This document shows, piece by piece, positions 969 to 19,422 of a stretch of DNA of 27,927 nt. How positions within the stretch are numbered: the stretch's first letter is position 1; every line of letters begins with the position of its first letter. The notes beneath the pieces are model-generated. The model saw nothing but the letters and a program-made list of their open reading frames with translations. It was not told the origin of the DNA and searched no databases. The translations under genes and the position numbers were made by a program. This stretch comes from a virus, in IMG/VR virus record IMGVR_UViG_3300030108_003601, positions 3,723 through 31,649 of that record; one strand, given 5' to 3'.

Positions 969-2597
969 ATGAAGGATTTTGAAAAGTATTTTACTGGATT
1001 AAAAAGAGACTTTGGTTTTTGCAATGTCAAGAACGGGTATCATGACCCCAAAACAAACAAACTTAAATTTGACCCAGGTGACTATGGCTGGGCTAAAAGA
1101 CCTATAACAGAAAAAGATTATCAAGATCATTTAACCGGACAAAAATCTATTGGCTTACAAGCATGTGATGATGAAAGCATGGCTAGCTTTGGTGCAATTG
1201 ATGTTGATCCTGACGATTATGAAAAATTTGATTTACAAAAATATTTAAAAGTTATTGATACTAAAAATTTACCAGTCATTCCAATCGAATCAAAAAGTGG
1301 TGGACTCCACATTTATGTATTTACAAAAGAAAAAGTACCTGCGTCTTTGATTAGAGAATTTTTATCTAATCTATTATTTTTATTTGGACTGCCAGCAAAG
1401 ACAGAAATATTTCCTAAACAAACTGCTCTTGGTAAAAATCAAAACGGAGAGAGAACCACTGGTAGTTTCATAAACCTTCCATATTTTAATGGTGACGAAC
1501 GTCAAGCATACAGACCTGACGGAAGTAAAATGGATCTAGATTATTTTTTAAAAGTAGTTGAAGCTAATTTACAAACAAAAGAAAGTTTACAAGAAGTTAG
1601 TAATAAAAAAATAAAAGAAGTATTAACTGGTGGACCTGAAGAGTTTGTTGATGGTCCTCCTTGTTTACAAATGATTTGCAAAGAGATACAGGAATCAGGC
1701 AACAAACTAAAAGATGAAAGAGATAGATTTTTATACAACTATATGGTTTTTGCTAAAAAGAAATTTAGTGAAAACTGGGAAAAGAAAGTTTTAGGAGCAG
1801 CTAGAAATTATATTTTGTATGATGAGATATGGGGTGATGGCAAAGTAGAAGAAAAAATTAAATATTGGAAGAAAGATACAGCGGGTTTTAAATGTAATGA
1901 TTTACCTATTTCATCTTATTGCGCGAGGGGAACGTGTCTTAAGAGAAAGTTTGGTATTGGTGGTCACTTTGATTCTCAATGGCCATCAGTATCAGGTTTA
2001 ATCAGAATTATGTACAAACCTAATCATGAATATTTTTTTAATGTAGAAGTTGCAGCAGATAAAATTGTACAAGTACACGCAACTAGTATAAAACAGTTTA
2101 ACGAAATGAAACAAATGCGTAGTCTAATCGCTGACCACACAACGACATATCCACCAAGCATCAAAGAAAAAGAATATCAAAATATATTAAATGGACTATG
2201 GGCAACCATGGAAACAATTCAACCACCCGCAGGCACAAACCCTGTAGACATGTTGAAGAAAGAATTATTTATGTATGTCAATGGACCTAAAGCTAGTTCT
2301 TATGCTGCTTTCAAAAGTGGTGCAGTCTTACATGAAGATAACAATTTTTATTTTGTGTACGATAAATTTTATGATGAATTAAAACGTGGAGATTGGAATC
2401 AAGAAAGAGCAAGAACAGCTACAATGATTAAACAATATTTTAAAGGTGAGTTTGATTGTCAAAAAAGATTTCCAAAAGGTGATAACGAAGAATCATTTCC
2501 ACCATTACGAGTTTTAAAGCTTCCTAAGGAAGGTTTAGAAAAAGAGGACATACCAGAAGAAATAATAGAAATAGAAGATAAGGAGAACATAGTATGA
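969..2597 (+). CDS. Archaeo-eukaryotic-type (AEP) DNA primase
   Basis: The 542-residue protein shows the three AEP catalytic motifs: GAIDVD with metal ligands D78 and D80, SKSGGLH with H114, and TEIFPK with E146. This form resembles the AEP domain of TOTE-type and phage primases. Around residues 315-330 a Cys-x4-Cys stretch followed by KRKFGIGG resembles the zinc-containing region seen downstream of such primase domains. The N-terminal 70 residues probably belong to the primase fold. It should lay down primers for the PolA encoded 2.5 kb downstream. It opens the replication operon and overlaps the next gene by 4 nt. No Shine-Dalgarno sequence is obvious before the ATG. Confidence 0.85.
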   Translation: MKDFEKYFTGLKRDFGFCNVKNGYHDPKTNKLKFDPGDYGWAKRPITEKDYQDHLTGQKSIGLQACDDESMASFGAIDVDPDDYEKFDLQKYLKVIDTKNLPVIPIESKSGGLHIYVFTKEKVPASLIREFLSNLLFLFGLPAKTEIFPKQTALGKNQNGERTTGSFINLPYFNGDERQAYRPDGSKMDLDYFLKVVEANLQTKESLQEVSNKKIKEVLTGGPEEFVDGPPCLQMICKEIQESGNKLKDERDRFLYNYMVFAKKKFSENWEKKVLGAARNYILYDEIWGDGKVEEKIKYWKKDTAGFKCNDLPISSYCARGTCLKRKFGIGGHFDSQWPSVSGLIRIMYKPNHEYFFNVEVAADKIVQVHATSIKQFNEMKQMRSLIADHTTTYPPSIKEKEYQNILNGLWATMETIQPPAGTNPVDMLKKELFMYVNGPKASSYAAFKSGAVLHEDNNFYFVYDKFYDELKRGDWNQERARTATMIKQYFKGEFDCQKRFPKGDNEESFPPLRVLKLPKEGLEKEDIPEEIIEIEDKENIV

Positions 2598-3295
2598 AGA
2601 AGCCACCTAAAGTTTATATATCAATGCCAACATATGATTTAATGCAAGTATCAACTTGTCTGTCATTGGTTAAACTATTTAACAAGTTTACGATCGCAAA
2701 GATACCTGCAGAGATAGGAACATTTAAGTGTCCTTACGTTGGTTATGGAAGAAACGTATTGACAGCAATGTTTTTAGAATCAGGTTTTGATTATCAATTG
2801 TTTGTAGATTCAGATTTAGAATTTGAACCTGATGTTGTTGGTCGTATGATAATAGCACAAAAGGATGCTATTTGTGTACCATACAGAAAAAAAACACAGG
2901 ACAATGTAGTTAAGTTTTCTGTAGAGTTTGATAATCCAACAGACATTCGTATAGATGAAAAAGGTATTGTGGAATTAAAAGCTGGCCCTGCAGGTTTAAC
3001 ATTAATACACAGAAAGGTTTATGAAAAATTAATGAAAGATAATCCACATCTTAAAATAAAACAAAAAGAAATAATATCTGAAAAAGCTAATTCTTATTTT
3101 TATAATTTTTGGGATACTACATTTAGTAAAGATGGAACATGGTGGGGAGAAGATGTAAACTTCTGTAATTTAATTAGAAAATCTGGTTTTAAATTTTATG
3201 GAATAGTTGATGGTAAAACCACGCATCATGGAAACTATGGATGGACTGGGTCTCTTGCAGATGGATTTAAAAAAGTAAATGGAAAAGATCAATAA
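2594..3295 (+). CDS. GT-A-type glycosyltransferase-like protein
   Basis: The 233-residue protein begins with VYISMPTYD, has GRNVLTAMFLESG followed by LFVDSDLEFEP (a DxD-type nucleotide-sugar/metal motif, about residues 72-82), then PYRKK. Near the C-terminus it has WWGEDVNFC and a late THHG histidine pair. This order (RN..A..FL, DSD, GED, HxG) is typical of small soluble GT-A glycosyltransferases found in phages. It overlaps both the primase (4 nt) and the helicase (17 nt), so it is translated with the replication proteins. The acceptor is unknown: modified DNA bases, a virion protein or a host surface glycan are all possible. No membrane segment is visible. Confidence 0.75.
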   Translation: MKKPPKVYISMPTYDLMQVSTCLSLVKLFNKFTIAKIPAEIGTFKCPYVGYGRNVLTAMFLESGFDYQLFVDSDLEFEPDVVGRMIIAQKDAICVPYRKKTQDNVVKFSVEFDNPTDIRIDEKGIVELKAGPAGLTLIHRKVYEKLMKDNPHLKIKQKEIISEKANSYFYNFWDTTFSKDGTWWGEDVNFCNLIRKSGFKFYGIVDGKTTHHGNYGWTGSLADGFKKVNGKDQ

Positions 3296-9045: not shown

Positions 9046-9936
9046 ATGAGAAAGACATTAGGAATTAATATTTCACATCATTGTTCGTTTGCTTATTTTG
9101 AAGATGGCATTTTAAAAGAGTATTACGAAGAAGATAGATTTAATAAGATTAAAGGTTATCACCCTGATGATGATGAGTCTGGTAATTACACTTATCAATA
9201 TGAAGTTTTAAAAAAATTTAAAAATATTACTTTTGATGCTGTAGTGTTTGCATCTTTTGATAGAGGTAATTTACAATTAGAACTACCCATAATCAGACCT
9301 ATACTAGAACAAATTAAATTTAAAGAATACTATTTTAATATTGTAAACCATCACATTTATCATGCAACCTGCGGATATTTTTTTAGTAAATTTGACAAAG
9401 CAATTGCTTTAATTTCTGATGGAGGTGGAGAGATAGAAGTTGCAAGAGATTTTAGAACTTTGCAAAGTATATTTTTAATAGACAAAAAAGAAGTTGTACC
9501 TAAATATAAATATTATTCTAATAAAAAAACAGACTACTTTAATAATTTTGTCCCAACAGAAATACATGAAAAGAAAGACATAGATTATACAATGAGTAAC
9601 AAAGCTAAAGCTGGTCTTAAATATCTTTATTATCTTATGGATGCAGGTTTTAAAGAAGGAGAAGAAGGTCAAATGATGGGCTTTGCTCCTTACAATGACA
9701 TTGCTAATGAAGCTCAAAAAGAAACTCTCAAAGATGTCATAGAATTAATTGAAAGAGCAAAAGAATATTCGGATTGTAAGAATATAATATTGTCTGGCGG
9801 TTATCATTTAAATTGTTCTAACAATTTTAAATTAGTAAAACTTTACCCTGAATATAATTTTTTTGTAGATCCAATACCATATGATGGAGGCACTGCAGTA
9901 GGAGCTGTATGTTATTATGAAAATTATCACAGATAA
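9046..9936 (+). CDS. Carbamoyltransferase, N-terminal (Kae1-like) part
   Basis: The 296-residue protein has LGINISHHCS at the start, NHHIYHATCGYFFS with the metal-site histidines, ALISDGGGE, a GQMMGFAPY segment, and ILSGGYHLNCSNN followed by DPIPYDGGTAVGA. These are the landmarks of the N-terminal ASKHA-fold domain of NodU/CmcH/TobZ-like O-carbamoyltransferases, which carry out carbamoyl-adenylate chemistry. In typical members the chain continues into the C-terminal YrdC-like-fold domain. Here it stops at 9936, and that domain is encoded separately in another frame starting at 9917. The substrate is unknown. Confidence 0.88.
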   Translation: MRKTLGINISHHCSFAYFEDGILKEYYEEDRFNKIKGYHPDDDESGNYTYQYEVLKKFKNITFDAVVFASFDRGNLQLELPIIRPILEQIKFKEYYFNIVNHHIYHATCGYFFSKFDKAIALISDGGGEIEVARDFRTLQSIFLIDKKEVVPKYKYYSNKKTDYFNNFVPTEIHEKKDIDYTMSNKAKAGLKYLYYLMDAGFKEGEEGQMMGFAPYNDIANEAQKETLKDVIELIERAKEYSDCKNIILSGGYHLNCSNNFKLVKLYPEYNFFVDPIPYDGGTAVGAVCYYENYHR

Positions 9937-10444
9937 AAAAGAAGCTGTTGATTTATTATTACAACAAAAAGTTGTTGTGATATTTCAAGGACATTCTGAA
10001 TGGGGAGCACGTGCTCTAGGTAACCGATCAATGTTATTTGATCCTCGTAATAAAGATGCAAAAGAAATTGTAAACAAAATAAAAGGCAGACAATGGTGGA
10101 GACCCACAGCTGCTACAATACTTTATGAACACAGGCATGATTATCTAGATATGCACGGACTAGATGAGTCTCCATACATGACCTTTGCAATTGATGCTAA
10201 ACAAAAAGCGATTGATGAAGTGCCCGCGTGTGTACACGCAGATAACACGTGCAGGTTTCAAACTTTAAAACGTGAACAAAATAAAAACTATTATGATCTT
10301 ATAAAATTATTTTATGACAAAACAGGCGTGCCTTTGCTGCTTAATACGTCTTTTAATCTGAAAGGATACCCTATAGTTGAAACATTTGATGACGCTTTGT
10401 TGACTTTACAAAACAGTAAGATTGAGTATTTATATACTCCATGA
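9917..10444 (+). CDS. Carbamoyltransferase, C-terminal domain as a separate ORF
   Basis: The 175-residue protein contains FQGHSEWGARALGNRSML, VNKIKGRQWWRPTA, SPYMTFAID, ACVHADNTCRFQT and TGVPLLLNTSFNLKGYPIV. These are the conserved blocks of the carbamoyltransferase C-terminal domain that binds ATP and carbamoyl phosphate. Every block is present, so the protein looks functional rather than decayed. Its ATG lies 20 nt before the stop of the N-terminal ORF, in the +1 frame relative to it. GGAG lies 12 nt upstream. The two products probably assemble into one enzyme. Confidence 0.87.
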   Translation: MKIITDKKEAVDLLLQQKVVVIFQGHSEWGARALGNRSMLFDPRNKDAKEIVNKIKGRQWWRPTAATILYEHRHDYLDMHGLDESPYMTFAIDAKQKAIDEVPACVHADNTCRFQTLKREQNKNYYDLIKLFYDKTGVPLLLNTSFNLKGYPIVETFDDALLTLQNSKIEYLYTP

Positions 10445-10662
10445 GTAAAAAAGTAATTATACAAAAAGCATTTGCCAACATAGATACCGTTCACGGTTTT
10501 TGTGAACAGTGTGAAGAAGAAACAATCTTAATTGCAATTGTTCAAGATTATTATAGATGTACCAACTGTGGTCACGATACTAGACAACACATAAATGGTA
10601 GTATAAGATATTTAAAGATAAGTGAAAAAGATAAAGAATATATAAAGCAAGAAAATAAATGA
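10441..10662 (+). CDS. Zinc-ribbon-like small protein
   Basis: The 73-residue protein has a CEQC knuckle (about residues 21-24) and a CTNCG knuckle (about 40-44) around a short beta-rich segment, then DTRQHINGSIRYLKISEKDKEYI. Two CxxC pairs at this distance fit a zinc ribbon. It overlaps the carbamoyltransferase by 4 nt and the following oxygenase by 4 nt. Binding to nucleic acid or to RNA polymerase is plausible for such proteins, but no function is known. Confidence 0.72.
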   Translation: MSKKVIIQKAFANIDTVHGFCEQCEEETILIAIVQDYYRCTNCGHDTRQHINGSIRYLKISEKDKEYIKQENK

Positions 10663-11177
10663 GTTTAAATATTCAAATAGTAGATAATTTCTTTTCGAAG
10701 AAAGAATATGATATTTTAGTTAACAACTTAAATAAAATTGCTTACACCCCTGCAACCAATAGTCAGGGACTTTATGGTATGAATCACGATATTGAAGAAA
10801 CAAAAGAAAACAAATGGTTGTTTGATAAAATCAAAAATAAATTTACTCCGGGCTTTCCTGAAATAAAAGAATTAGAAATGGTATATGCTTCTTTTCAAAT
10901 GAGAGATAATAAAGGTGATATTAGTCCTCATAAAGATGAGGGTATAAAAGGTCATTACACATCTAAATATAATTGTTTAATATATTTAAAAGGAGAAGAA
11001 CTAACTTACAATGGAACTGGTTTTTATCATGATACTAATTTAAATACATACATAGGCTTTGTTAACAATAGAGCTATGTTTTTTAATGGACGTGATATTT
11101 ATCATACTTGTTTACAGGGTTTAGGAGAAAGCAGTGCACGATATACGTTAGGAGTATTTTATGGGAAAAAAAGCTAA
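10659..11177 (+). CDS. 2-oxoglutarate/Fe(II)-dependent oxygenase 1
   Basis: The 172-residue protein opens with QIVDNFFSKKEYDIL, typical of prolyl-4-hydroxylase-like (P4Hc) oxygenases. The iron triad is H91-x-D93 (SPHKDEG) and H149 (IYHTC), with R161 (ARYTLGVFY) as the likely 2-oxoglutarate carboxylate ligand. The whole double-stranded beta-helix appears present. It should couple oxidation of 2-oxoglutarate to hydroxylation of an unknown substrate. It overlaps the zinc-ribbon gene by 4 nt and the following basic protein by 17 nt. Confidence 0.85.
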   Translation: MSLNIQIVDNFFSKKEYDILVNNLNKIAYTPATNSQGLYGMNHDIEETKENKWLFDKIKNKFTPGFPEIKELEMVYASFQMRDNKGDISPHKDEGIKGHYTSKYNCLIYLKGEELTYNGTGFYHDTNLNTYIGFVNNRAMFFNGRDIYHTCLQGLGESSARYTLGVFYGKKS

Positions 11178-11283
11178 GTTTGGTTTAGTTACAGCTCCAC
11201 GTCAACGGCCTAGAAAGAGACCGGGCAGGCACAAAAAAAGTCCTAACAAACACGAAAAAAGAATGGGTAAATATAGAAGATAG
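11161..11283 (+). CDS. 40-residue Arg/Lys-rich protein
   Basis: The ATG at 11161 overlaps the oxygenase end, and the ORF closes 1 nt before the next gene. About 17 of 40 residues are Lys or Arg, with the stretch RPRKRPGRHKKSPNKHEKR. I recall similar short RPGRHKK-type proteins in marine myoviruses and pelagiphages, so it is probably a conserved small protein. DNA, RNA or virion-interior binding is possible. An AGGAG upstream supports translation. Confidence 0.65.
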   Translation: MGKKAKFGLVTAPRQRPRKRPGRHKKSPNKHEKRMGKYRR

Positions 11284-11284
11284 T

Positions 11285-11800
11285 ATGATAACAAAAATAA
11301 ATACAAACGTCCCTAAACAAACTAATCATAGAATCATAGATCTGTTGTACAAAGTTGGCACCTGGTCTTTTGGTTTTGATAATCATTTAAGTAAAAAATT
11401 AAACACAATAAATGCAGGTCTGACGTATGCATCTTTTCAGCCTGATAGATTTTATGTTAATCATGAAAGTTTAAATAGTTATGCTGTATTCATTCAAGAT
11501 CTTATAGAACAAAACTCTTATATGAAATTTAAAAAATTACATCGGGTATATTGGAACTGGTATTGCCCTGGTGCAATTATGGAGATGCACCAAGATGCAC
11601 CTACAGATAATTTTTATTCTATTATTTATAATCTACATACAAATGATGGTGGCACTGAATTTAAAGTAAACGATGAAATTAAATTTTATGAATCTGTAGA
11701 ATCTGAGGCTTTTCTTTTTCCTAGCAAATTGTATCACAGAGGAATTGCACCTAAGAAAGATCCAAATAGGTTTAATTTAAATATATTATTGGAGATATAA
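11285..11800 (+). CDS. 2-oxoglutarate/Fe(II)-dependent oxygenase 2
   Basis: The 171-residue protein has H102-x-D104 in MEMHQDAP, H151 in KLYHRGIAP and R162 in NRFNLNILL, giving a complete iron triad and 2-oxoglutarate-binding arginine. The strand pattern between them (YSIIYNLHTNDGGTEF, then EAFLFPS) is that of a P4Hc-like jelly roll. The sequence differs widely from oxygenase 1 outside these motifs, so this is not a recent duplicate. Its stop abuts the end of a minus-strand gene (convergent, no gap). Confidence 0.83.
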   Translation: MITKINTNVPKQTNHRIIDLLYKVGTWSFGFDNHLSKKLNTINAGLTYASFQPDRFYVNHESLNSYAVFIQDLIEQNSYMKFKKLHRVYWNWYCPGAIMEMHQDAPTDNFYSIIYNLHTNDGGTEFKVNDEIKFYESVESEAFLFPSKLYHRGIAPKKDPNRFNLNILLEI

Positions 11801-12043
11801 TTAAGCTGGGGTCTTTGGTTTAGGCGGTGGAACAATAGCTTCCTCGCATGTAAATTTAGGATACATTCTAAATTTTACTACATCTTGTTCCGAAAACTTG
11901 CCTTGATACAATATATCGTATGACTCAGAAAGCCCATTTCGAACACAATCATAATAGCTGTCCTGTGGCTTAGGATATGTAAGAGTAGTAACACAATTAC
12001 CCGCTATAGTTGAACAAATGTATACTGTTAAAAAAAATTTCAT
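11801..12043 (-). CDS. Small secreted protein with cysteines
   Basis: The start is set at the ATG at 12043, because AAGGAA lies eight bases upstream on the minus strand. A TTG two codons earlier is less likely. The 80-residue product starts MKFFLTVYICSTIAG, a short signal-peptide-like segment. It continues with cysteines in GNC, YDCVRNG and KFTCEE and ends in a proline-rich PPPKPKTPA tail. It is probably exported to the periplasm, where the cysteines could pair. It is the first minus-strand gene, divergent from the 12111 operon. The function is unknown; it could act in host takeover or superinfection exclusion. Confidence 0.7.
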   Translation of the reverse strand: MKFFLTVYICSTIAGNCVTTLTYPKPQDSYYDCVRNGLSESYDILYQGKFSEQDVVKFRMYPKFTCEEAIVPPPKPKTPA

Positions 12044-12071
12044 TGACAAGTTCCTTGTAAATTTATATAAA
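12043..12071 (+). promoter_or_regulatory. Sigma70-type promoter for the 12111 operon
   Basis: TTGACA (12043-12048), a 17-bp spacer and TATAAA (12066-12071) give a near-consensus promoter. The element TATCCTATAT follows at 12072-12081. The predicted transcript has a 30-nt leader with AGAAAGG before the ATG at 12111. The -35 box overlaps the start codon region of the divergent minus-strand gene. Confidence 0.75.
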
Positions 12072-12110
12072 TATCCTATATGTTTAGATATTACAGAAAG
12101 GATATACTAA

Positions 12111-12299
12111 ATGACAGACATAAGCAAATACAAAAGTCTCGCAGTTGATCATGACTGCTATGGTAAAATTGATAAGCTGACCAAGGTACTGGCACCAGGA
12201 ATCATTTTATCAAGAGCGCAGGTGATTAGAATGTTAGTAGACGAGAAAGCGAAGAAGTTAAATGGCAAAATCACAAAGCGTGTTTCCAAAGGCGATTAA
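12111..12299 (+). CDS. Putative ribbon-helix-helix DNA-binding protein
   Basis: The 62-residue protein has a short strand (YKSLAVDHD), a helix (YGKIDKLTKVLA), a turn (PGIILS) and a second helix (RAQVIRMLVDEKAKKL). That is the strand-helix-helix layout of Arc/CopG-type repressors. A basic tail follows. It is first in an operon driven by a promoter carrying the TATCCTATAT element, so it could autoregulate by binding that element. The fold assignment is by pattern only. AGAAAGG precedes the start by about 11 nt, and it overlaps the next gene by 38 nt. Confidence 0.6.
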   Translation: MTDISKYKSLAVDHDCYGKIDKLTKVLAPGIILSRAQVIRMLVDEKAKKLNGKITKRVSKGD

Positions 12300-12558
12300 C
12301 GTCATTGGAGACAGGAAGAATGCAGAGCAAAGTCTTTGGCGTAATGTGTTAATCGTAGCCCTGGAGGACGCATTGGGTTCACAATGGCGTAATAAAAATT
12401 ACGGTAACCCAGGCAATGATTATTTTACACAGACAGCTAGAAGTTATTTTCTAGAGCCTAATAGAGATTTTGCTTTGGTATGCCAGTACGCAGGGTTTGA
12501 CCATCAATACATAAGAATGAAAGCAAAGCAGTTTTTTAACAGAAAGGAGAACGCATGA
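12262..12558 (+). CDS. Conserved hypothetical protein
   Basis: The 98-residue basic soluble protein starts inside the preceding gene. It contains LWRNVLIVALEDALGSQWRN and a C-terminal block DFALVCQYAGFDHQYIRMKAKQFF that could form two or three helices, possibly a helix-turn-helix around YAGFDHQYIRMKA. I do not recognise a named family. It is in a chain of small early-type genes with 4-38 nt overlaps. Confidence 0.65.
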   Translation: MAKSQSVFPKAINVIGDRKNAEQSLWRNVLIVALEDALGSQWRNKNYGNPGNDYFTQTARSYFLEPNRDFALVCQYAGFDHQYIRMKAKQFFNRKENA

Positions 12559-12782
12559 TAAACATGTTGAAAGCAATCGTAAGCGAAATGAAAAGAGCTA
12601 ACGATATAAAAGAAAGAGAGCTGAAGTTGAGAGAAGAACAATGGGAGGATTCAAAAGCGTCTTGGTCTTTTAAACAAGATAGGTATCCACCACAATTTTG
12701 GATTGGTGGTACAACAACCTGTTGTCAAGATCCGCAAGCAACTAATAATTTTGCAAGTGGTCAAAGGTTTGGCAGATGGTAA
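12555..12782 (+). CDS. Small hypothetical protein with helical N-terminus
   Basis: The 75-residue protein has a charged helix (residues 5-35, ERELKLREEQWEDSK) followed by an aromatic, Gly/Thr-rich segment with CC. Its ATG overlaps the previous stop (ATGA), and AAAGGAG precedes it. The next ATG falls inside its last codons. No family is recognised. Confidence 0.6.
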   Translation: MINMLKAIVSEMKRANDIKERELKLREEQWEDSKASWSFKQDRYPPQFWIGGTTTCCQDPQATNNFASGQRFGRW

Positions 12783-12937
12783 AAAAAATATGCAAAGTTT
12801 GTAATGGCAACGGATTTGTACGAGTGCCATTTGATCAAGCTCAGGAGGAACAATGGGCTGACTGTGAATTTTGTAACAATCAAGGAGAAATAGAGGAGGA
12901 AGAAGACGATGATACTGTTCGGAAAATACAGCATTAA
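12776..12937 (+). CDS. Small DnaJ-type zinc-finger protein
   Basis: The 53-residue ORF has CKVCNGNG and CEFCNNQG, two CxxCxGxG-like repeats as in the central domain of DnaJ, followed by a highly acidic tail (EIEEEEDDD). The two cysteine pairs should bind one zinc ion. It overlaps both neighbours (7 and 29 nt). Phage single-finger proteins of this type are common and their function is not established. Confidence 0.65.
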   Translation: MVKKICKVCNGNGFVRVPFDQAQEEQWADCEFCNNQGEIEEEEDDDTVRKIQH

Positions 12938-13049
12938 TAATAAAAAATGGAGACAACAATTGTCTGCCTGGAGTTTATACTATCGAAGCGAGATAGTTTA
13001 TGCGTCGGTAGGTTTTATTGTTGGGTTTATATTGGGGGTAATAATATGA
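12909..13049 (+). CDS. Small membrane protein, C-terminal anchor
   Basis: The 46-residue ORF has a basic N-terminal half (NNKKWRQQLSAW) and a C-terminal hydrophobic segment (VYASVGFIVGFILGVII) ending at the stop codon. The next ATG overlaps its stop (ATGA at 13046-13049). GGAGGAAGAAGAC precedes the start. A peripheral or tail-anchored membrane protein is likely; the role is unknown. Confidence 0.6.
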   Translation: MILFGKYSINNKKWRQQLSAWSLYYRSEIVYASVGFIVGFILGVII

Positions 13050-13246
13050 GACAAGCTATACTGCAAGCGCTAGAAGATAAATACACTGCGCAAATATCAG
13101 AGGCAGATGCAACTATAAAAATCTATCTGGATAATTCTGTTGGCATTGGAGAACATCCACAGCACATAGAAGAGATAGATAAACTTATGCAAAAAATTGT
13201 AGATGCTCAAGAAAAATTAAAAGAACTACAGGCGTTTAAACTATGA
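13046..13246 (+). CDS. Small coiled-coil protein
   Basis: The start is set at the ATG at 13046, because it overlaps the previous stop (ATGA) and follows GGGGG. A longer frame from 12947 would overlap the membrane protein. The 66-residue product is almost entirely helical and charged, with leucine/isoleucine spacing (IDKLMQKIVDAQEKLKEL) that suggests a coiled coil. No function is assigned. Confidence 0.6.
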   Translation: MRQAILQALEDKYTAQISEADATIKIYLDNSVGIGEHPQHIEEIDKLMQKIVDAQEKLKELQAFKL

Positions 13247-13545
13247 TGACCAGTGATTTTATAGTGGCAACTAATTTAAAAACATTGGTTGGCCTGTATG
13301 GTTTGACTTACAAAAGATTAGCTAACGAGTTAAACATGGAACAATCCGTAGTCTTTAGAATTGTAAAAGGACAAAGAAAGGTAAGTTTAAAATTGTTAGA
13401 TAAACTTGCTGAAGTATTTAATTGTAACCCCAAAGATTTGTTAGACCCTGAGTTTGCATTAGGTGTGGGTTGGCAGTTGATGTTCAATAAAGATTTTAAA
13501 GTCAACGAAAAATTAATTAACAAAAAAATTTATAGAACGGCATGA
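13243..13545 (+). CDS. XRE/Cro-CI-type helix-turn-helix regulator
   Basis: The 100-residue protein has a classical five-helix XRE domain at about residues 10-68. GLTYKRLANELNMEQSVVFRI is helices 2-3, VSLKLLDKLAEVFN is helix 4, and NPKDLLD caps the domain. A short basic C-terminal region follows. It probably binds operator DNA as a dimer, and the inverted repeats at 22061-22089 or the TATCCTATAT sites are possible targets. Two ATGs (13243 and 13246) compete; either overlaps the preceding stop. Confidence 0.8.
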   Translation: MMTSDFIVATNLKTLVGLYGLTYKRLANELNMEQSVVFRIVKGQRKVSLKLLDKLAEVFNCNPKDLLDPEFALGVGWQLMFNKDFKVNEKLINKKIYRTA

Positions 13546-13649
13546 TAGATTTGTTAGTTTCGATAGCAGCAATACTATTAATATATGCGTTCGTAATAGG
13601 TTTGTTACGAATGTGGAACAAGGAGGACAATGATAATAGCAGACGGTAA
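13542..13649 (+). CDS. 35-residue single-span membrane protein
   Basis: The ATG overlaps the preceding stop (ATGA). Residues 3-22 are hydrophobic (DLLVSIAAILLIYAFVIGLL), followed by RMWNKEDND. The ORF ends 20 nt inside the next gene. It would insert with its charged C-terminus in the cytoplasm. The function is unknown. Confidence 0.6.
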   Translation: MIDLLVSIAAILLIYAFVIGLLRMWNKEDNDNSRR

Positions 13650-14139
13650 AGATTATGACTTACTTAAAAAATGGTCTCACAACTTTGATTGTGATGGATA
13701 CTACTCATGTGAGATTGGTGTAGGTAAAGGCATGGGATCTCAAATTATAATGGATAATGTTATTAACAATTATTTACATATCGGAATCGATTCTTATACG
13801 GACAACGTCAGAGATACTTTGGTTGAAGATCTTTTTGATTATTCTAACAAAGGAAGATTTAGATTAGCAAACATGACAGAAAGATTATTCATGTCTCATC
13901 CGGACCACCAGGACATGACGTTTGCATTTGTGCATTTTGATTGTTCAACAACATCACAAGATATAATGACACAAGCCGTGTGGTTTGCTGAAAGAGCAGC
14001 ACGTCACTCGCGGTTTATATTTAGTAATCACACTCAATATAAGTTTGATTTGATTTCGGAAGTAATGAAATTTTATAACTTTGAAATTCATGGAACAGGA
14101 GAAGCAAAATGTATGATGGCAAAGGCACCAAGAAGATGA
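13630..14139 (+). CDS. Class I methyltransferase-like protein
   Basis: The 169-residue protein has CEIGVGKGMGSQII (residues 27-40), matching the glycine-rich SAM-binding loop. LHIGIDSYTDN then gives the acidic ribose-binding residue, and FAFVHFDCST resembles motif IV. These suggest a compact Rossmann-type methyltransferase of the FkbM/CmcI-like kind rather than a DNA methyltransferase, because no DPPY/NPPY motif is seen. The substrate is unknown. AGGAGG lies 6 nt before the ATG. Confidence 0.6.
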   Translation: MIIADGKDYDLLKKWSHNFDCDGYYSCEIGVGKGMGSQIIMDNVINNYLHIGIDSYTDNVRDTLVEDLFDYSNKGRFRLANMTERLFMSHPDHQDMTFAFVHFDCSTTSQDIMTQAVWFAERAARHSRFIFSNHTQYKFDLISEVMKFYNFEIHGTGEAKCMMAKAPRR

Positions 14140-14570
14140 TAACAGAAACAGATAGAGCCTACATCGCTGGGCTATTCGATGGAGAAGGCAGCATCTATTT
14201 CGCAAAGCGTGCGGAGATGAAGAAAAAACATAATGGCAAAGGTTACAGAATATCTCTGTCACAACGTATTAGTATGGAAATAACTATGACGGATGAGTCT
14301 GTTATACGTTGGGTCCACGAAGTATTAGGACGCGGAACTGTCGTGCGTAAGCCACGCAAAGGCTTACGCAAAGACGGGACTAAATATTTAATGCAATGGA
14401 AGTGGCGTTGCACTTTTAGAGATGCGTACTATGTCTGCAAATTGCTATGGCCTTGGGCACACGTTAAGATGCCTAAGATCCAACAAGTGATAGATCATTA
14501 CAATATTAATAAAGACAATATTGTAGACTTAAAACAATACAAGATAGTAAATAAAGGAGCCCTAAAATGA
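14109..14570 (+). CDS. Free-standing LAGLIDADG homing endonuclease
   Basis: The 153-residue protein has one LAGLIDADG motif, YIAGLFDGEGSI, at residues 18-29. A single motif implies action as a homodimer. The basic beta-saddle region follows (RKPRKGLRKDG), then the conserved aromatic segment RDAYYVCKLLWPW. It is not inside an intron or intein that I can see, as both neighbours look intact. GGAGAA precedes the start at 14109; an ATG at 14136 overlapping the previous stop is a good alternative. It would cleave alleles lacking it and spread the segment. Confidence 0.85.
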   Translation: MYDGKGTKKMITETDRAYIAGLFDGEGSIYFAKRAEMKKKHNGKGYRISLSQRISMEITMTDESVIRWVHEVLGRGTVVRKPRKGLRKDGTKYLMQWKWRCTFRDAYYVCKLLWPWAHVKMPKIQQVIDHYNINKDNIVDLKQYKIVNKGALK

Positions 14571-15313
14571 TGAATGATGAGGATTTACGCGAGTTTCATA
14601 GCATCGGAAAAAAGAAAGTTATCTGGGATGGAAAGTCCAAATTTGATTACCAAACCATTAAAAGAGTAGACTCTGACTCTGGTCGAGTTTACGACATCAA
14701 CAACGAGAAGTTGCCATCTGTTACAACAATACTGGGTGCAACTAGATCGGAAGAATCGAAAGCAAAACTGGCAGCATGGAGGCAAAGAGAAGGCGAAATT
14801 AAGGCAGACAAAATACGTGATGATGCAGCCGCTCGAGGTACAATTATGCACCGAATATTAGAAGGATTTATAAAAGATGAAGGACACATGGATCTTACAA
14901 AATTAGGACAAGAGGCAGGCACCATGGCCCAAAACATCATCGATAAAGGCCATTTCGAGCCCTTAGAAGAGGTGTGGGGGCTAGAGATGCCCCTATGGTA
15001 CCCTGGATTGTATGCTGGGGCTTCTGACGTGGCTGGTTTGTACGACGGTCGGGAGTCTATCATAGATTTTAAGCAAAGCAATAAATACAAGAAGCGTGAA
15101 TGGATTGACGATTATTTTATACAATGTGCGGCTTACGCCGTGGCTCACAACTACGTGTATGGTACGAACATACAATCTGGAGTGATTCTAATTAGCGTTA
15201 AAGGTGGAGATGTTCTAAGGTACGTGTCACATGGTAAGGAATTTCAACACTTTATGTGGACTTGGCTAGGTAGAGTGGGTCAATACTACAAGCAACAGGC
15301 ATCAGGCACCTAG
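14567..15313 (+). CDS. RecB/Cas4-like PD-(D/E)XK exonuclease
   Basis: The 248-residue protein has the RecB-family nuclease series: H95 in GTIMHRILEG, E140 (WGLEMPL), D154 (GASDVAG), D167-x-K169 (IIDFKQS) and the QxxxY motif Q186-Y190 (FIQCAAY). This is a complete active site. It would degrade or process DNA ends in recombination-dependent replication or host DNA breakdown. It is the last gene of the chain that began at 12111, and it is followed by noncoding DNA with repeats. Confidence 0.87.
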   Translation: MMNDEDLREFHSIGKKKVIWDGKSKFDYQTIKRVDSDSGRVYDINNEKLPSVTTILGATRSEESKAKLAAWRQREGEIKADKIRDDAAARGTIMHRILEGFIKDEGHMDLTKLGQEAGTMAQNIIDKGHFEPLEEVWGLEMPLWYPGLYAGASDVAGLYDGRESIIDFKQSNKYKKREWIDDYFIQCAAYAVAHNYVYGTNIQSGVILISVKGGDVLRYVSHGKEFQHFMWTWLGRVGQYYKQQASGT

Positions 15314-15422
15314 GACCCATAGAGTATTCTGTATGAGATTTATGTTTGAGAAAAAAAATTTGAAAAACATAGTGATACAATGCTACAATGGACTTAAATC
15401 ATTGATATTATTGAATAAAGTA

Positions 15423-15455
15423 CTGCTACAATGCTGCTACAATGGTGTTACAATG
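15423..15455 (+). repeat. Three 11-bp tandem repeats (CTGCTACAATG)
   Basis: CTGCTACAATG occurs at 15423-15433 and 15434-15444, then as GTGTTACAATG at 15445-15455. Two further TACAATG cores lie upstream at 15376-15382 and 15384-15390. Spacing of 11 bp places the copies on roughly the same DNA face, as in protein-binding iterons. Confidence 0.7.
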
Positions 15456-15481
15456 TGCTTCAGGGAAATCCCTACGCGCGC

Positions 15482-15498
15482 GCGTGAAAACGCTTTTT
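15482..15498 (+). terminator. Weak terminator-like GNRA hairpin
   Basis: GCGT-GAAA-ACGC followed by TTTTT is a 4-bp stem with a stable GAAA loop and a U tract. It could end transcription from the exonuclease operon. An overlapping stem, GCTTTT-TAC-AAAAGC (492-506 of this thousand), competes with it. Confidence 0.35.
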
Positions 15499-15541
15499 AC
15501 AAAAGCAGTTTCTCATGTATAAAACTCTATGGAAGGAACGG

Positions 15542-16147
15542 ATGAGAGAAATAAAATATAACTTTTTACATTGGGGGCCATGGGTATGTCATTTTAGATT
15601 ATTACCCGAGGAGTTAGAAGCTTTTAATAAATTACAAGACGGAGTAAACTTTCAAAAAGGTTTAGCCGGTCATTTAAAAGACGAGTACGAGTTAGATAGA
15701 AACAGAGTCTTTACAATAATTTATCCGTATCTTAGTAGCTACGCGCAGGGTATTTACGATTATAGACAAGTTAAATTAAAACCAGGATTTGATTTAAGAT
15801 CCGCTTGGATCAACCGTCAAAAGAAAAATGAATTTAATCCACCACACACTCACGACGACGATTTATCTTTCGTGGCATATACAAAAATCCCTGAAGGATT
15901 AGAAAAAGAATGCAGAGAGGCTGTACACAATAGCCCTGGTCCAGGTTGTATCTCTTTTGATTTTAATATACCAGGCGGAAGTTTTAATAATTTATTTTTA
16001 AATACGCACGCTCACTTACCTAGTGTAGGTGACATGTTTATTTTTCCAGCTCAGTTACCACACTGGGTGTATCCATTTAAAACAACAGAAGGTGAAAGAG
16101 TTTCCATTTCTGGAAATATAAGATTGTATGACGGCCAAAAAAAGTAA
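15542..16147 (+). CDS. 2-oxoglutarate/Fe(II)-dependent oxygenase 3 (2OG-FeII_Oxy_5-like)
   Basis: The start is placed at 15542, because GGAAGGA lies 5-11 nt upstream; an ATG at 15515 has no such site. The 201-residue product has NPPHTHDDDLSFVAY with H104-x-D106 (or H102), then GDMFIFPAQLPHWVYPF with H174, and ERVSISGNI with R186. The layout matches the putative 2OG-Fe(II) oxygenase family of T4-like cyanophages and other marine phages. It begins a second cluster of oxygenases. The substrate is unknown. It overlaps the next gene by 20 nt. Confidence 0.85.
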   Translation: MREIKYNFLHWGPWVCHFRLLPEELEAFNKLQDGVNFQKGLAGHLKDEYELDRNRVFTIIYPYLSSYAQGIYDYRQVKLKPGFDLRSAWINRQKKNEFNPPHTHDDDLSFVAYTKIPEGLEKECREAVHNSPGPGCISFDFNIPGGSFNNLFLNTHAHLPSVGDMFIFPAQLPHWVYPFKTTEGERVSISGNIRLYDGQKK

Positions 16148-16412
16148 ATATAAATCGATAGTTATAAAGAAGAAAAGATATAACTTTTACAAAATTACCT
16201 GGGTCGATCCGACGGGCGATTCGGGGCACGCGACAGCCGAGGAGTTTGTAAAGTTTAAAGCTAGTGTTATGGTAACGCAAGCATATTTATTTAGTAAAGA
16301 TAAAAAGTTTATTAGAACGTTTGCATCCTATGAAGAAGGTGATGAATTATTCTCTGATCGAAATATATTTCCAAGAGGATGCGTTGTTAAGATGGAAAAG
16401 GTTCTTTTGTGA
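16128..16412 (+). CDS. Conserved marine phage hypothetical protein
   Basis: The 94-residue basic protein has the segments YKITWVDPTGDSGHATAEE, VTQAYLFSKDKKFIRTFASYEEG and RNIFPRGCVVKMEKV. It reads as a compact beta-rich domain, similar to what I recall as a conserved protein of marine phages, with no known activity. It lies between two oxygenase genes, overlapping one by 20 nt and the other by 4 nt, so it is translated with them. Confidence 0.65.
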   Translation: MTAKKSKYKSIVIKKKRYNFYKITWVDPTGDSGHATAEEFVKFKASVMVTQAYLFSKDKKFIRTFASYEEGDELFSDRNIFPRGCVVKMEKVLL

Positions 16413-16942
16413 TACAGATTTTAGACAACTTCTTTGAAGATGTGTTGTTTCAAAATATTAAAAACCACTGCGTAACTAAATTATATTACACACCCAAGTA
16501 TTACGACGACCCTGATGTAGCCGATATACGAGATAAGACTACACATTATGGCAGTAGATACATTTTAAATAATGATCCAAAGTTGTTAGATGTTTTTGTT
16601 CAACAGGCAAATAAAAAATTTAATATTAAAATAAAAAAACTTCATCCAGACTGTGGTGTTGATATGAGAAACTACGATAGATTTGTTCCTCACACAGACA
16701 CCGCGCTTGGAGCTAAAGTAAATGTTTTAGTAATGATAAGTGGACCAACAGCAGTAAACAATGGGACTGTTTTTTATAGTGGTGAAAAGGACAAGGAAGA
16801 GTTAGATATCCATGTAGGTTTTAGAGAAAACAGAGCCGTGTTATTTCCATCTGGTTGGATTCACTCTGCTCATTTAAGTAACGTTCCTAATTTAAGAAGA
16901 CATACTGCCACTTTGTTTATACAAGACTACGAAAGGATTTAA
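16409..16942 (+). CDS. 2-oxoglutarate/Fe(II)-dependent oxygenase 4
   Basis: The start is a GTG at 16409 that overlaps the previous stop (GTGA). The 177-residue protein has H95-x-D97 in VPHTDTAL, H152 or H155 in WIHSAHLSN, and R164 in RRHTATLFI. The N-terminus IQILDNFFEDVLF resembles that of oxygenase 1, and the central NNGTVFYSG...DIHVGFRENRAVLFPS block parallels it too. The two are therefore distant members of one subfamily. Its 3' end overlaps the convergent small terminase gene by 4 nt. Confidence 0.85.
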   Translation: MIQILDNFFEDVLFQNIKNHCVTKLYYTPKYYDDPDVADIRDKTTHYGSRYILNNDPKLLDVFVQQANKKFNIKIKKLHPDCGVDMRNYDRFVPHTDTALGAKVNVLVMISGPTAVNNGTVFYSGEKDKEELDIHVGFRENRAVLFPSGWIHSAHLSNVPNLRRHTATLFIQDYERI

Positions 16943-17454
16943 TCTGAATTATCTGATACCAGCTTTGGTTTTTCTTTTACTTTTTCTTTCAATTCTTCCT
17001 CACTTATACCATCTAGAATTGGAGAGTAGTCATCGATTATTCGTTTCATTCGTGATTCTAGTTCTTCTGTTGTTAGGTCTTCTAACTTGCCAGTTCGTAT
17101 TATCTTCTGTTCAATATATAGACCTGCAGCCTTTCCGCGTGCAACTTCTGCGTTGACAGCTGCTGACCAGGCTCCCTTTTTAAGAGCTTCTTTTCTGATC
17201 TGTCCCAACTCTGCAATATGTTTTTCATAAGTGACTTCATATTTTTTCTGCCACTCTTCTCTAAGTTCTCCAATGTATTTAACAACTAGCGGATACAATT
17301 TTGGATTCTGTAGTTTACTTGCGTATTGTCTTGCAGAGTCTTTTGCAAAGCCAGCATCAACCGCACACTCGGTTGCTGTTTTCCTGCCTTCGTTTGTAAC
17401 CAGCTCGTATGCGAATTTCATCTGTTGTTCAGTTAATTTCTTTGGTAAACCCAT
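16939..17454 (-). CDS. terS: Terminase small subunit (Terminase_2-like)
   Basis: The 171-residue protein begins KLTEQQMKFAYELVTNEGRK, then TATECAVDAGFAKDSARQYASKLQNPK, the DNA-binding helix-turn-helix of Terminase_2/XtmA-type small subunits. Long helices follow (residues 55-120) that would oligomerise, then an acidic tail for contact with the large subunit. It should recognise the packaging site. It lies on the strand opposite to terL and 5 kb away, between oxygenase genes. Upstream there is no clear Shine-Dalgarno sequence. Confidence 0.8.
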   Translation of the reverse strand: MGLPKKLTEQQMKFAYELVTNEGRKTATECAVDAGFAKDSARQYASKLQNPKLYPLVVKYIGELREEWQKKYEVTYEKHIAELGQIRKEALKKGAWSAAVNAEVARGKAAGLYIEQKIIRTGKLEDLTTEELESRMKRIIDDYSPILDGISEEELKEKVKEKPKLVSDNSD

Positions 17455-17456
17455 AC

Positions 17457-17485
17457 TTGATATTTAGTACAACTTAGTCTATAAA
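17457..17485 (+). promoter_or_regulatory. Sigma70-type promoter, possibly leaderless
   Basis: TTGATA (17457-17462), a 17-bp spacer and TATAAA (17480-17485). Exactly 7 nt later (17493) is the ATG of a six-codon mini-ORF (MFTGKL, stop at 17511-17513) directly joined to the ATG of the oxygenase at 17514. Transcription would begin at about that first ATG. Confidence 0.65.
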
Positions 17486-17491
17486 TCAACC

Positions 17492-17506
17492 TATGTTTAC
17501 TGGAAA
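17492..17506 (+). repeat. 15-bp direct repeat, upstream copy
   Basis: TATGTTTACTGGAAA here is identical to 18062-18076, where it forms the start (MFTG) of the next gene. The two copies are 570 bp apart and bound the oxygenase gene 17514-18059. Confidence 0.85.
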
Positions 17507-17513
17507 GTTATAA

Positions 17514-18059
17514 ATGAAAACAATATTGTTAGACGACATATTATCAGAGAAAGAGCTGTATTTTGTATACAATGAAATAATAGGTGCCTCTACTTGGTCT
17601 GTTGGTACTACTTCAGACTATGTTGAATATCCTTCCAACAAAAGATTTGCTGGTGGTGCTAAGTTTTTAGTGAAGCACGGAGATGGAACGGTCTTAAATT
17701 ACCCGCTTTATTTTTGGGGACAAACTTTAGTGCATAGAATGGCTAAAATATTAGAGCAGAAAAATATTGGAATGCATACAAAACTTAAACGAATGTGGTT
17801 TTTATCTACAACGACAGGGTCACCTTTACATTATCTGCATCCTGATGGAGAAGATAATACCCATTCTATTTTATTTTTTATAACTCCGGTTTGGAAAACT
17901 GGTTGGAGAGGATCTTTTTATGTGGACGGAGAAGAGTTTAAATTTAAACCTGGTAGTGCTGTAGTCTTTGATTCTAAAGAATATCACACAGGAGAGGATC
18001 CAATTTCTGAGACGTACAATTGGCAAAGAGTAACTTTAAATATGATAGTTGAAAGATAG
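17514..18059 (+). CDS. 2-oxoglutarate/Fe(II)-dependent oxygenase 5
   Basis: The 181-residue protein has H109-x-D111 in HYLHPDGED, H158 in EYHTGEDP and R172 in QRVTLNMIV. SILFFITPVWKTGWRGSFYV lies between as jelly-roll strands, so the active site is complete. It sits between two copies of a 15-bp repeat, and the upstream copy is a truncated start of the downstream gene, so it looks like a cassette inserted in front of that gene. It would be expressed from the promoter at 17457, with translation possibly coupled to the mini-ORF ending in TAA just before its ATG. The substrate is unknown. Confidence 0.84.
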   Translation: MKTILLDDILSEKELYFVYNEIIGASTWSVGTTSDYVEYPSNKRFAGGAKFLVKHGDGTVLNYPLYFWGQTLVHRMAKILEQKNIGMHTKLKRMWFLSTTTGSPLHYLHPDGEDNTHSILFFITPVWKTGWRGSFYVDGEEFKFKPGSAVVFDSKEYHTGEDPISETYNWQRVTLNMIVER

Positions 18060-18061
18060 AT

Positions 18062-18076
18062 TATGTTTACTGGAAA
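18062..18076 (+). repeat. 15-bp direct repeat, downstream copy
   Basis: Identical to 17492-17506. This copy covers the start codon and first codons of the gene at 18063. Confidence 0.85.
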
Positions 18077-18287
18077 AGTATTAAGAGCGGCATTAGATAA
18101 ATTTATGAAAGGCGAGGTAGCAGCCAATGCAAGAGTGCAAGTTATCCTGCCAAATGGTGAGTTTTATGACATCACGGGTGTGAAGTTATTAGAAAACAAA
18201 TTGATTGGTGTAAGAGAATCTCATAGACTGGCCATTACAATATCCCCTGAACAATGGAAAATGGGAAAGGTTATTAAAAAACTATGA
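18063..18287 (+). CDS. Conserved small phage protein
   Basis: The 74-residue basic protein has RAALDKFMKGEVAANARVQVILPNGEFYDITGVKLLENKLIG, an N-terminal helix followed by a small beta domain, and a SHRLAITI segment. I recall similar proteins in marine phages, function unknown. Its first five codons are duplicated at 17493, just after a promoter, suggesting that it was once the promoter-proximal gene before the oxygenase was placed in between. It overlaps the next gene by 4 nt. Confidence 0.68.
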   Translation: MFTGKVLRAALDKFMKGEVAANARVQVILPNGEFYDITGVKLLENKLIGVRESHRLAITISPEQWKMGKVIKKL

Positions 18288-18892
18288 GTTACGATCACAA
18301 AATAATAGATCAAAAGTATCACATGAAAGGTTTAATTACTAAAGATGTGTGTAAACAGCTGATACAATTTTACGAAGATAAAATACATATGGCCACGCCC
18401 GAGGAGAGTTATAAGTTTGAAGAAGATAAAACAATAACAGATACTTTTGGTTGCTTAAATATATCTCAACTTAGAGACACTGAAGGTTTTCAAGAGCCTT
18501 ACAAAATCATATTAAACTACCTTCGAATTGTTCTAACTAACTACGAATTGTTTGTTCGTAATACTTTCTGCCCTAGTTTTAAAAATATTTTCATGACAAA
18601 TACCAACAACATAAGAATCCTAAAGTACGATGTTGGACAATGTATTAAAGATCATTCTGATATTGATGGATTTACAAGAGGATCTTTGACAATCAATCTT
18701 AATGACGATTACGAAGGCGGTGAGTTTAGATTCTTTGGTGGACAAGAAAAGGTAAGATTGTCTGAAGGCGAGGCAATGCTTTTCCCTGCAGAGCCTATTT
18801 GGATTCATGGCACTGAGCCCGTAACGAAAGGCGCTCGTTATACAATTAATTGTTTCTTGAGATTGCCACCACAAACTAACGAAACCAAATGA
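18284..18892 (+). CDS. 2-oxoglutarate/Fe(II)-dependent oxygenase 6 (P4Hc-like)
   Basis: The 202-residue protein has H124-x-D126 in KDHSDIDG, then SLTINLNDDYEGGEFRFFGG, the strand pair typical of prolyl-4-hydroxylase-like enzymes. H175 follows in WIHGTEPV, and R185 in ARYTINCFLR. This is the most P4H-like of the seven. Such phage enzymes could hydroxylate protein side chains, nucleotides or small molecules; the sequence alone does not say which. It overlaps genes on both sides by 4 nt. Confidence 0.88.
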   Translation: MSYDHKIIDQKYHMKGLITKDVCKQLIQFYEDKIHMATPEESYKFEEDKTITDTFGCLNISQLRDTEGFQEPYKIILNYLRIVLTNYELFVRNTFCPSFKNIFMTNTNNIRILKYDVGQCIKDHSDIDGFTRGSLTINLNDDYEGGEFRFFGGQEKVRLSEGEAMLFPAEPIWIHGTEPVTKGARYTINCFLRLPPQTNETK

Positions 18893-19422
18893 AGTTATCT
18901 TTCTGTATCCCTGGAAAAGTATATTGGATAACTAATTTTTTAGACTATGGCTTATACAAAGGTATTCATGATGCCATTATCAAAGAAAGAAATAAGATCA
19001 ACCTGCATTCATCAGAAGGTAAATGGAGTGATGACTTGATTGCTAATATTGTACCCCCACTGAGAGTGGGTGTGAGTAAGTATCAACCCTTTGATCAGTT
19101 AAAAACATTGGTTAGACACAATGCTTTTTTTAAAATGGATGATCTAATCGAGATGAATACTAACATTCATTACATGAAGAAAGGTGCTGGTATAAACTGG
19201 CACGACGATGGAGGTTGGAAATATGGAGCAACCCTTTACATAAATCACAAATGGCATAGGCAATGGGGCGGTGAGTTTATGTTTACGGATAACGATGGCC
19301 ACGGCTGGATACCACCGGTTGGCAATTCTTTGGTTATAGTAAAAGCTCCGATAGCACATAAAGTTAACCCTGTACTGAGTCCGGTCATGCCCAGGATTTC
19401 TGTACAATTATTTATGAAATAG
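18889..19422 (+). CDS. 2-oxoglutarate/Fe(II)-dependent oxygenase 7
   Basis: The 177-residue protein has H105-x-D107 in NWHDDGGW, ATLYINHKWHRQWGGEFMF, H157 in PIAHKVNPV and R169 in PRISVQLF. The triad and the 2-oxoglutarate ligand are present. The WGGEF strand also fits small P4Hc-type enzymes. It ends the oxygenase run; a TTGACA 2 nt after its stop has no good -10 partner. Confidence 0.86.
   Translation: MKLSFCIPGKVYWITNFLDYGLYKGIHDAIIKERNKINLHSSEGKWSDDLIANIVPPLRVGVSKYQPFDQLKTLVRHNAFFKMDDLIEMNTNIHYMKKGAGINWHDDGGWKYGATLYINHKWHRQWGGEFMFTDNDGHGWIPPVGNSLVIVKAPIAHKVNPVLSPVMPRISVQLFMK

Follow-up and report, generated by a model that had tools for sequence, protein, structure and literature searches.

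Diverged 2-oxoglutarate/Fe(II) oxygenase genes of a SAR11 phage and their relatives at a tail-module address in HTVC023P-type pelagiphages

Oxygenases that depend on 2-oxoglutarate (2OG) and Fe(II), and have no known substrate, recur among the auxiliary metabolic genes reported from marine viruses. Several of them are carried by T4-like cyanophages (PMC3037559), and eight nonorthologous 2OG-Fe(II) oxygenase genes were described in HTVC023P-type pelagiphages as 'frequently nearby (although not adjacent)', with variable order and ferrochelatase partners (PMC9599517; mSystems 2022). The PHROG categories of 2OG oxygenase and ferrochelatase have also served as the basis of an ecological claim (PMC11561400). 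In the MetaGPA system, a phage carbamoyltransferase of the NodU/TobZ type caps the hydroxyl group of 5-hydroxymethylcytosine (5hmC; PMC8670742). Here we describe a stretch of 27,927 bases, termed the window, of the 31,649-base IMG/VR record IMGVR_UViG_3300030108_003601 (record G000), in which a first-pass annotation, made from the letters alone, had pointed to seven intact 2OG/Fe(II) oxygenase genes within 9 kb. They are named OG1 to OG7 (Table 1).

The window is assigned to a HTVC023P-type SAR11 phage (pelagiphage), since 23 of its non-oxygenase genes are present, in the same order, in Pelagibacter phage HTVC027P, which infects SAR11 strain HTCC1062 and is the nearest public isolate (77% DNA identity over 29% of the query). 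It thus shares both lineage and multiple nonorthologous 2OG genes with the phages of PMC9599517, but in place of genes that are 'not adjacent' and paired with 'ferrochelatase' we find contiguous arrays of up to eight genes, a fixed address in the tail module, separate slots for individual families and capping-type partner genes. Cultured examples of the tail-module array are HTVC027P gp72–gp74 and HTVC023P gp65–gp67 with gp71, although these are shorter and only partly annotated (in HTVC027P, gp73 as 2OG oxygenase, gp72 and gp74 as hypothetical). In T4-like cyanophages and pelagimyophage Mosig, too, a genome has several diverged 2OG genes (of families phrog_61 and phrog_81), but there they are scattered among genes for head, tail completion and recombination, and no tail-island array was present in the stretches examined. 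The carbamoyltransferase found here is of the same type as that of MetaGPA, but the latter is paired with a thymidylate-synthase homologue, whereas here the company consists of P4H-type oxygenases and the enzyme is often split in two open reading frames (ORFs). The array, its near-fixed address, the slot system, the capping-type partners and the annotation correction given below appear to be new, as none was found described in the open-access literature searched, outside which most subscription papers lie.

Taken together, comparison with relatives places the seven genes in a mobile, combinatorial pool of small, predicted single-domain oxygenases in HTVC023P-type phages. All seven ORFs are present and intact (for OG3 an alternative start lies at 15515, which makes it 27 nt longer), and sequence comparison assigns all of them to the 2OG/Fe(II)-dependent oxygenase superfamily. 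In the Pfam search OG3 matched PF13759 (2.4e-12) and OG6 and OG7 matched PF13640 (6e-10 and 3e-9) above the cut-off, OG4 and OG5 matched PF13640 below it, and OG1 and OG2 gave no relevant match. Profile-profile comparison (hhalign) joins all seven families, mostly via OG6: OG1 with OG4 at 99.9%, and OG6 with OG2 at 95%, OG5 at 88%, OG4 at 87%, OG3 at 82% and OG7, the weakest link, at 53%. Sequence-profile searches of the PDB were uninformative for OG1, OG2, OG4, OG5 and A8, gave weak matches for OG7 and OG6 (the latter to PiuC, P4H and LH3), and matched OG3 to two uncharacterised solved proteins.

The HxD...H iron triad, which had been claimed for each gene, is invariant or nearly so in six of the families, in alignments of 14–87 relatives per family, but OG3 departs from it, having H102-x-H104..H174..R186 in all 26 relatives. 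The HxH motif is seen also in the PF13759 relatives gp72 and gp74 of HTVC027P, and may represent a three-His iron site. The arginine expected to bind 2OG is conserved in all seven, 10 to 14 residues after the distal histidine. AlphaFold2 (AF2) models of OG1 and OG7 (pLDDT 91.5 and 93.6) have the jelly roll that the first-pass annotation had called for, of the prolyl-hydroxylase type, and matched solved prolyl hydroxylases with Foldseek E-values of 2e-7 and 5e-11, respectively; for the other five the fold is assigned by profile linkage. The best solved folds are peptide prolyl hydroxylases, i.e., PHD2, Pseudomonas putida P4H bound to EF-Tu and vCPH of PBCV-1 (TM about 0.6–0.78 on the query), so where modelled the pool oxygenases are predicted to be prolyl-hydroxylase-like; identity to these proteins is 11–19%, at which the substrate is not transferable. 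All 14 dN/dS estimates fall between 0.03 and 0.44, which indicates purifying selection on the seven genes.

The strong divergence noted at first holds, with pairwise identities of 21–33% among the seven; these 2OG oxygenases are distinct and separated from one another long ago. For each, the closest relative (91–99% identity) lies in another phage and is not a neighbouring gene, and of the proposed duplications only that of OG1 and OG4 is recognisable by sequence. Horizontal exchange is indicated by OG5, which is 93% identical in phage L027 while the exonucleases of the two phages are 70% identical. Tblastn of OG1, OG2, OG5 and OG7 gave no match in 50,697 isolate phage records, and a scan of bacterial genomes for OG7 relatives yielded, apart from partial matches, a single phage contig from a SAR11 single cell.

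The arrangement of the genes was followed in two places, the replication side, where the seven genes lie, and the tail module. On the replication side the seven oxygenases are spread over five slots (Table 1), separated by backbone genes such as the exonuclease, an HNH gene and the terminase small subunit; the 9 kb do not form an operon. Families prefer certain slots: OG7 was found 33 times and OG6 21 times between g18063 and Hjc, and OG3 22 times between the exonuclease and g16128. In the 26 nonredundant relatives in which the whole stretch is visible, between zero and seven oxygenases occupy the slots, the window phage being the fullest and nine relatives, HTVC027P among them, holding none. 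Only two of 15 pairwise tests of slot co-occurrence fell below 0.05 uncorrected (the exonuclease–terminase slots with g18063–Hjc, p 0.003, and Zn–g11801 with exonuclease–terminase, p 0.046). Since the slots vary and are filled mostly independently, the proximity of the genes in the window is not in itself evidence of a single pathway, and the reading of the 9-kb cluster as one is not supported. OG6 and OG7 are the only conserved pair among the seven: these overlapping genes occur in the order OG6–OG7 28 times against 11.6 expected, with five reversed cases, in islands and slots alike, a count to which shared descent adds.

The second address is an island in the tail module. In HTVC027P, three 2OG genes (gp72 and gp74 with PF13759, gp73 with PF13640, all above the cut-off) lie between gp71 and gp75 and run against the direction of the tail genes; gp70 carries a tail collar domain, and phage stabilisation proteins are homologues of gp75. 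This region is absent from the record of the window. Each of the ten long IMG/VR relatives that were mapped has oxygenases in the island, between the collar/gp71 genes and gp75; their strand is mostly the opposite one, G005 being co-directional and G003 mixed. In HTVC023P and 023Pt_psg01 the same module holds a contiguous array that runs in the direction of the tail genes, and a contig of a SAR11 single-cell assembly, with the same tail backbone, holds OG4–OG6–OG7 between gp71 and gp75. No oxygenase was found beside the gp75 homologues of the non-SAR11 phages DSL-LC04 and Roseobacter CRP-901. All 70 IMG/VR loci with both flanks carry two to eight island oxygenases (two in 12 loci, three in 9, four in 18, five in 14, six in 9, seven in 5 and eight in 3), the longest contiguous run being eight (L094, L215 and L216). 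Many of these loci were fetched by oxygenase queries, and for this reason the unbiased evidence for the island is that of the long relatives, fetched by an exonuclease anchor, and of the isolates.

Oxygenase combinations shift from one island to another, and every one of the seven window families is found in the island of other phages, hence at both addresses. The trees require at least eight changes between island and slot for OG7, at least five for OG5 and at least four each for OG4 and OG1, whereas the gp73 family is restricted to the island (98 island copies, no slot copy). The relatives thus do not show a random distribution without shared neighbours. In Mantel tests the composition of the island follows the collar protein (r 0.21, p 0.002; with gp75 accounted for, 0.19, p 0.004) and not gp71, which is physically nearer. 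On the minus strand, at L273:15794-15821, a sigma-70-like promoter match (11/12) immediately precedes gp74, with which the HTVC027P tail array begins.

Some of the other island genes could act on a hydroxyl group once it is formed. Carbamoyltransferases occur in four loci, a sulfotransferase-like family with weak PF03567 in nine and a clear PF03567/phrog_3347 sulfotransferase in one; two methyltransferase families, a ParB-like gene and one JmjC_2 protein (L168) were also noted. Such capping-type partners are present in a minority of islands. In the window the Carbam_trans_N and Carbam_trans_C domains of a NodU/TobZ carbamoyltransferase are both above the cut-off on two overlapping ORFs; the same split is seen in L007, L010–L013, L029, L096, L165–L167 and L259 (fused in L092, L198 and L203), and its recurrence led us to reject a sequencing error. 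The methyltransferase-like and zinc proteins, once listed as partners in the cluster, are backbone genes present in the oxygenase-free stretch of HTVC027P. The proposal of a multi-step modification pathway therefore loses its support from co-localisation within 9 kb, while the idea of modification itself is upheld by the contiguous tail-island arrays with carbamoyl-, sulfo- and methyltransferases.

Our tentative preference, held with less than even confidence, is that the pool serves protein hydroxylation, with the tail as the likeliest target. Each enzyme would bind Fe(II) and 2OG and hydroxylate a protein at a residue or position of its own; the most plausible substrate is a tail protein encoded next door to the island. 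A protein or peptide is favoured over DNA because the folds of OG1 and OG7 are prolyl-hydroxylase-like, and a tail protein because of the tail-module address and the weak correlation with the collar; the carbamoyl- and sulfotransferases in the island fit with new hydroxyls being capped in some phages by these enzymes, and perhaps by methyltransferases. Turnover of the genes may then diversify the modified surface, e.g., for adsorption. A stronger version, to which we give roughly one chance in four, is a combinatorial decoration of the virion, in which swapped array positions (up to eight hydroxylases plus capping transferases) would yield a changeable hydroxylated, carbamoylated or sulfated receptor-facing tail, so that adsorption is diversified chemically and not by sequence.

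Several observations weigh against the preferred explanation. The collar correlation is weak and drawn from loci found with oxygenase queries, so that sampling may contribute to it; the window copies lie outside the tail module; in T4-like marine phages the relatives have head or recombination genes as neighbours; and no replication-side slot shows an association with the carbamoyltransferase (Fisher p 0.27–0.58, 26 relatives). The tail proteins have no collagen-like repeats (no GXY runs) and therefore offer no obvious prolyl substrate; a collagen-like tail substrate was rejected on this ground. An island that lies mostly on the opposite strand and has a promoter-like site could also simply be a permissive site for morons.

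Variable presence, together with the moron-like strand and promoter, would suit a takeover of the host, in which its proteins, such as translation factors or those of ribosome or envelope, are hydroxylated and different sets of enzymes suit different SAR11 ecotypes. The P. putida P4H complexed with EF-Tu among the fold relatives of OG7 and the JmjC_2 gene of ribosomal-oxygenase type in one island point the same way, but P4H fold similarity is generic and the constant position between the same two tail genes is left unexplained, and we regard host takeover as unlikely, at about one chance in five. Sugars are common substrates of carbamoyl- and sulfotransferases, and a marginally less probable alternative is a tailoring of small molecules or glycans: the oxygenases and the accompanying transferases (carbamoyl-, sulfo- and methyl-) would share as their substrate a lipid, a peptide-like metabolite or an oligosaccharide, such as a glycan of the virion or the envelope. 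The name of phrog_3347 (galactose-3-O-sulfotransferase), a GT80 glycosyltransferase within the same module and the natural-product oxygenases PolD and PasI among the fold matches of OG7 agree with such tailoring; on the other hand, no sugar-nucleotide or biosynthetic core genes were noted in the island, and partner genes reach only a minority of islands.

Hypermodification of DNA, with an oxygenase-hydroxylated base capped by the carbamoyltransferase as in 5-carbamoyloxymethyl-dC, has a precedent in the known phage 5hmC carbamoyltransferase (PMC8670742), and the replication-side slots are close to polymerase and exonuclease. Yet the thymidylate-synthase (TS) homologue of that system is missing from G000 and from 16 of 17 other records searched, no Tet_JBP domain is above the cut-off in 18 records or among the Pfam matches of the seven genes, the OG1 and OG7 folds are prolyl-hydroxylase-like, and most array carriers have no carbamoyltransferase. 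This explanation, rejected as first choice since neither TS/dCMP-hydroxymethylase nor Tet_JBP was found, is improbable. A role as bulk 2OG sinks or in DNA repair, as proposed for cyanophages (PMC3037559) and in line with iron genes that go up in HTVC027P infection (PMC12753301), is very improbable, as it would require neither a tail-module address nor numerous diverged families whose active-site surroundings are distinct and strongly conserved.

Returning to the hydroxylation of tail protein, the near-fixed address, the arrays and the capping enzymes turn a general puzzle into a specific one. One may ask whether the virion tail proteins of the cultured HTVC027P and HTVC023P are hydroxylated? 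If so, phages that decorate themselves in this way would infect a globally abundant ocean bacterium (SAR11).

Table 1. Coordinates of the oxygenase genes and of other features (window positions unless stated; slots are given by their two flanking backbone genes, exo being the exonuclease and terS the terminase small subunit)
Feature	Position	Strand	Remarks
OG1	10659..11177	+	P4H-type 2OG/Fe(II) oxygenase (predicted); H91xD93..H149..R161; phrog_274 1e-12; AF2 model PHD2/vCPH-like; slot Zn/g11801
OG2	11285..11800	+	2OG/Fe(II) oxygenase (predicted); H102xD104..H151..R162; phrog_274 1e-16; hhalign 95% to OG6; slot Zn/g11801
OG3	15542..16147	+	2OG-FeII_Oxy_5 (PF13759); H102xH104..H174..R186; phrog_81 2e-30; solved relatives 2rg4, 3bvc; slot exo/g16128
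OG4	16409..16942	+	2OG/Fe(II) oxygenase (predicted), GTG start; H95xD97..H152..R164; OG1 paralogue; slot g16128/terS
OG5	17514..18059	+	2OG/Fe(II) oxygenase (predicted); H109xD111..H158..R172; slot terS/g18063
OG6	18284..18892	+	2OG-FeII_Oxy_3 (PF13640); H124xD126..H175..R185; first of OG6-OG7 pair; slot g18063/Hjc
OG7	18889..19422	+	2OG-FeII_Oxy_3 (PF13640); H105xD107..H157..R169; 4-nt overlap with OG6; AF2 model prolyl-hydroxylase fold; slot g18063/Hjc
Eighth 2OG-oxygenase-like gene	2396-2902 of record G000 (L292), upstream of window		168 aa, OG1/OG4 type, HxD...H; weak phrog_274 and phrog_1644
Carbamoyltransferase, N-terminal half	9046..9936	+	NodU/TobZ-type, Kae1-like; PF02543 7e-12; slot M15/Zn
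Carbamoyltransferase, C-terminal half	9917..10444	+	YrdC-like; PF16861 8e-56; overlaps N-terminal ORF
Zn-ribbon-like small protein	10441..10662	+	backbone gene, HTVC027P gp18; slot border; outside system
Methyltransferase-like protein	13630..14139	+	backbone gene, HTVC027P gp24; outside system
Terminase small subunit	16939..17454	-	backbone gene between slots

The eighth oxygenase-like gene sits between an SF2 helicase and g127. A further family of 177 residues, present in the island of twelve loci, corresponds to phrog_2954, which is labelled ferrochelatase (3e-40). Its members have an invariant HxD...H and align with OG4 (72%, reversed control 0.2%), while the downstream arginine is missing from its usual place. 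No ferrochelatase Pfam match was obtained for HTVC023P gp67, URG13120, 11 phrog_2954-like members and the ACG-2014f protein; the proteins deposited as 'putative ferrochelatase' from HTVC023P (gp67) and 023Pt_psg01 have HxD...H without a ferrochelatase signature, and the 'ferrochelatase' of ACG-2014f has a clear PF13640 domain (4.5e-17). The phrog_2954 family is thus probably a further oxygenase family and not a ferrochelatase. Marine-phage 'ferrochelatases' of phrog_3531 and phrog_2954 (L305:1754-2842, L331:1802-2422 and L332:3939-4595) have a 2OG domain or HxD...H and no ferrochelatase domain. The labels of phrog_274 ('DNA endonuclease V') and phrog_1644 ('minor coat protein') also look wrong for the present proteins, as both match 2OG oxygenases here, one of them modelled as prolyl-hydroxylase-like. 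In published ecological claims (PMC11561400; PMC9599517) the labels 'ferrochelatase' (phrog_3531, phrog_2954) and 'DNA endonuclease V' (phrog_274) may therefore mean oxygenases.

Two further genes were noted. An island family of about 181 aa (L209:5791-6336 and three relatives) conserves the motif 'NID.HHDF' and matched nothing in Pfam or PHROG. In the window, positions 2594-3295 hold a glycosyltransferase-like backbone gene (phrog_1574, weak PF00535), which is gp05 in HTVC027P.

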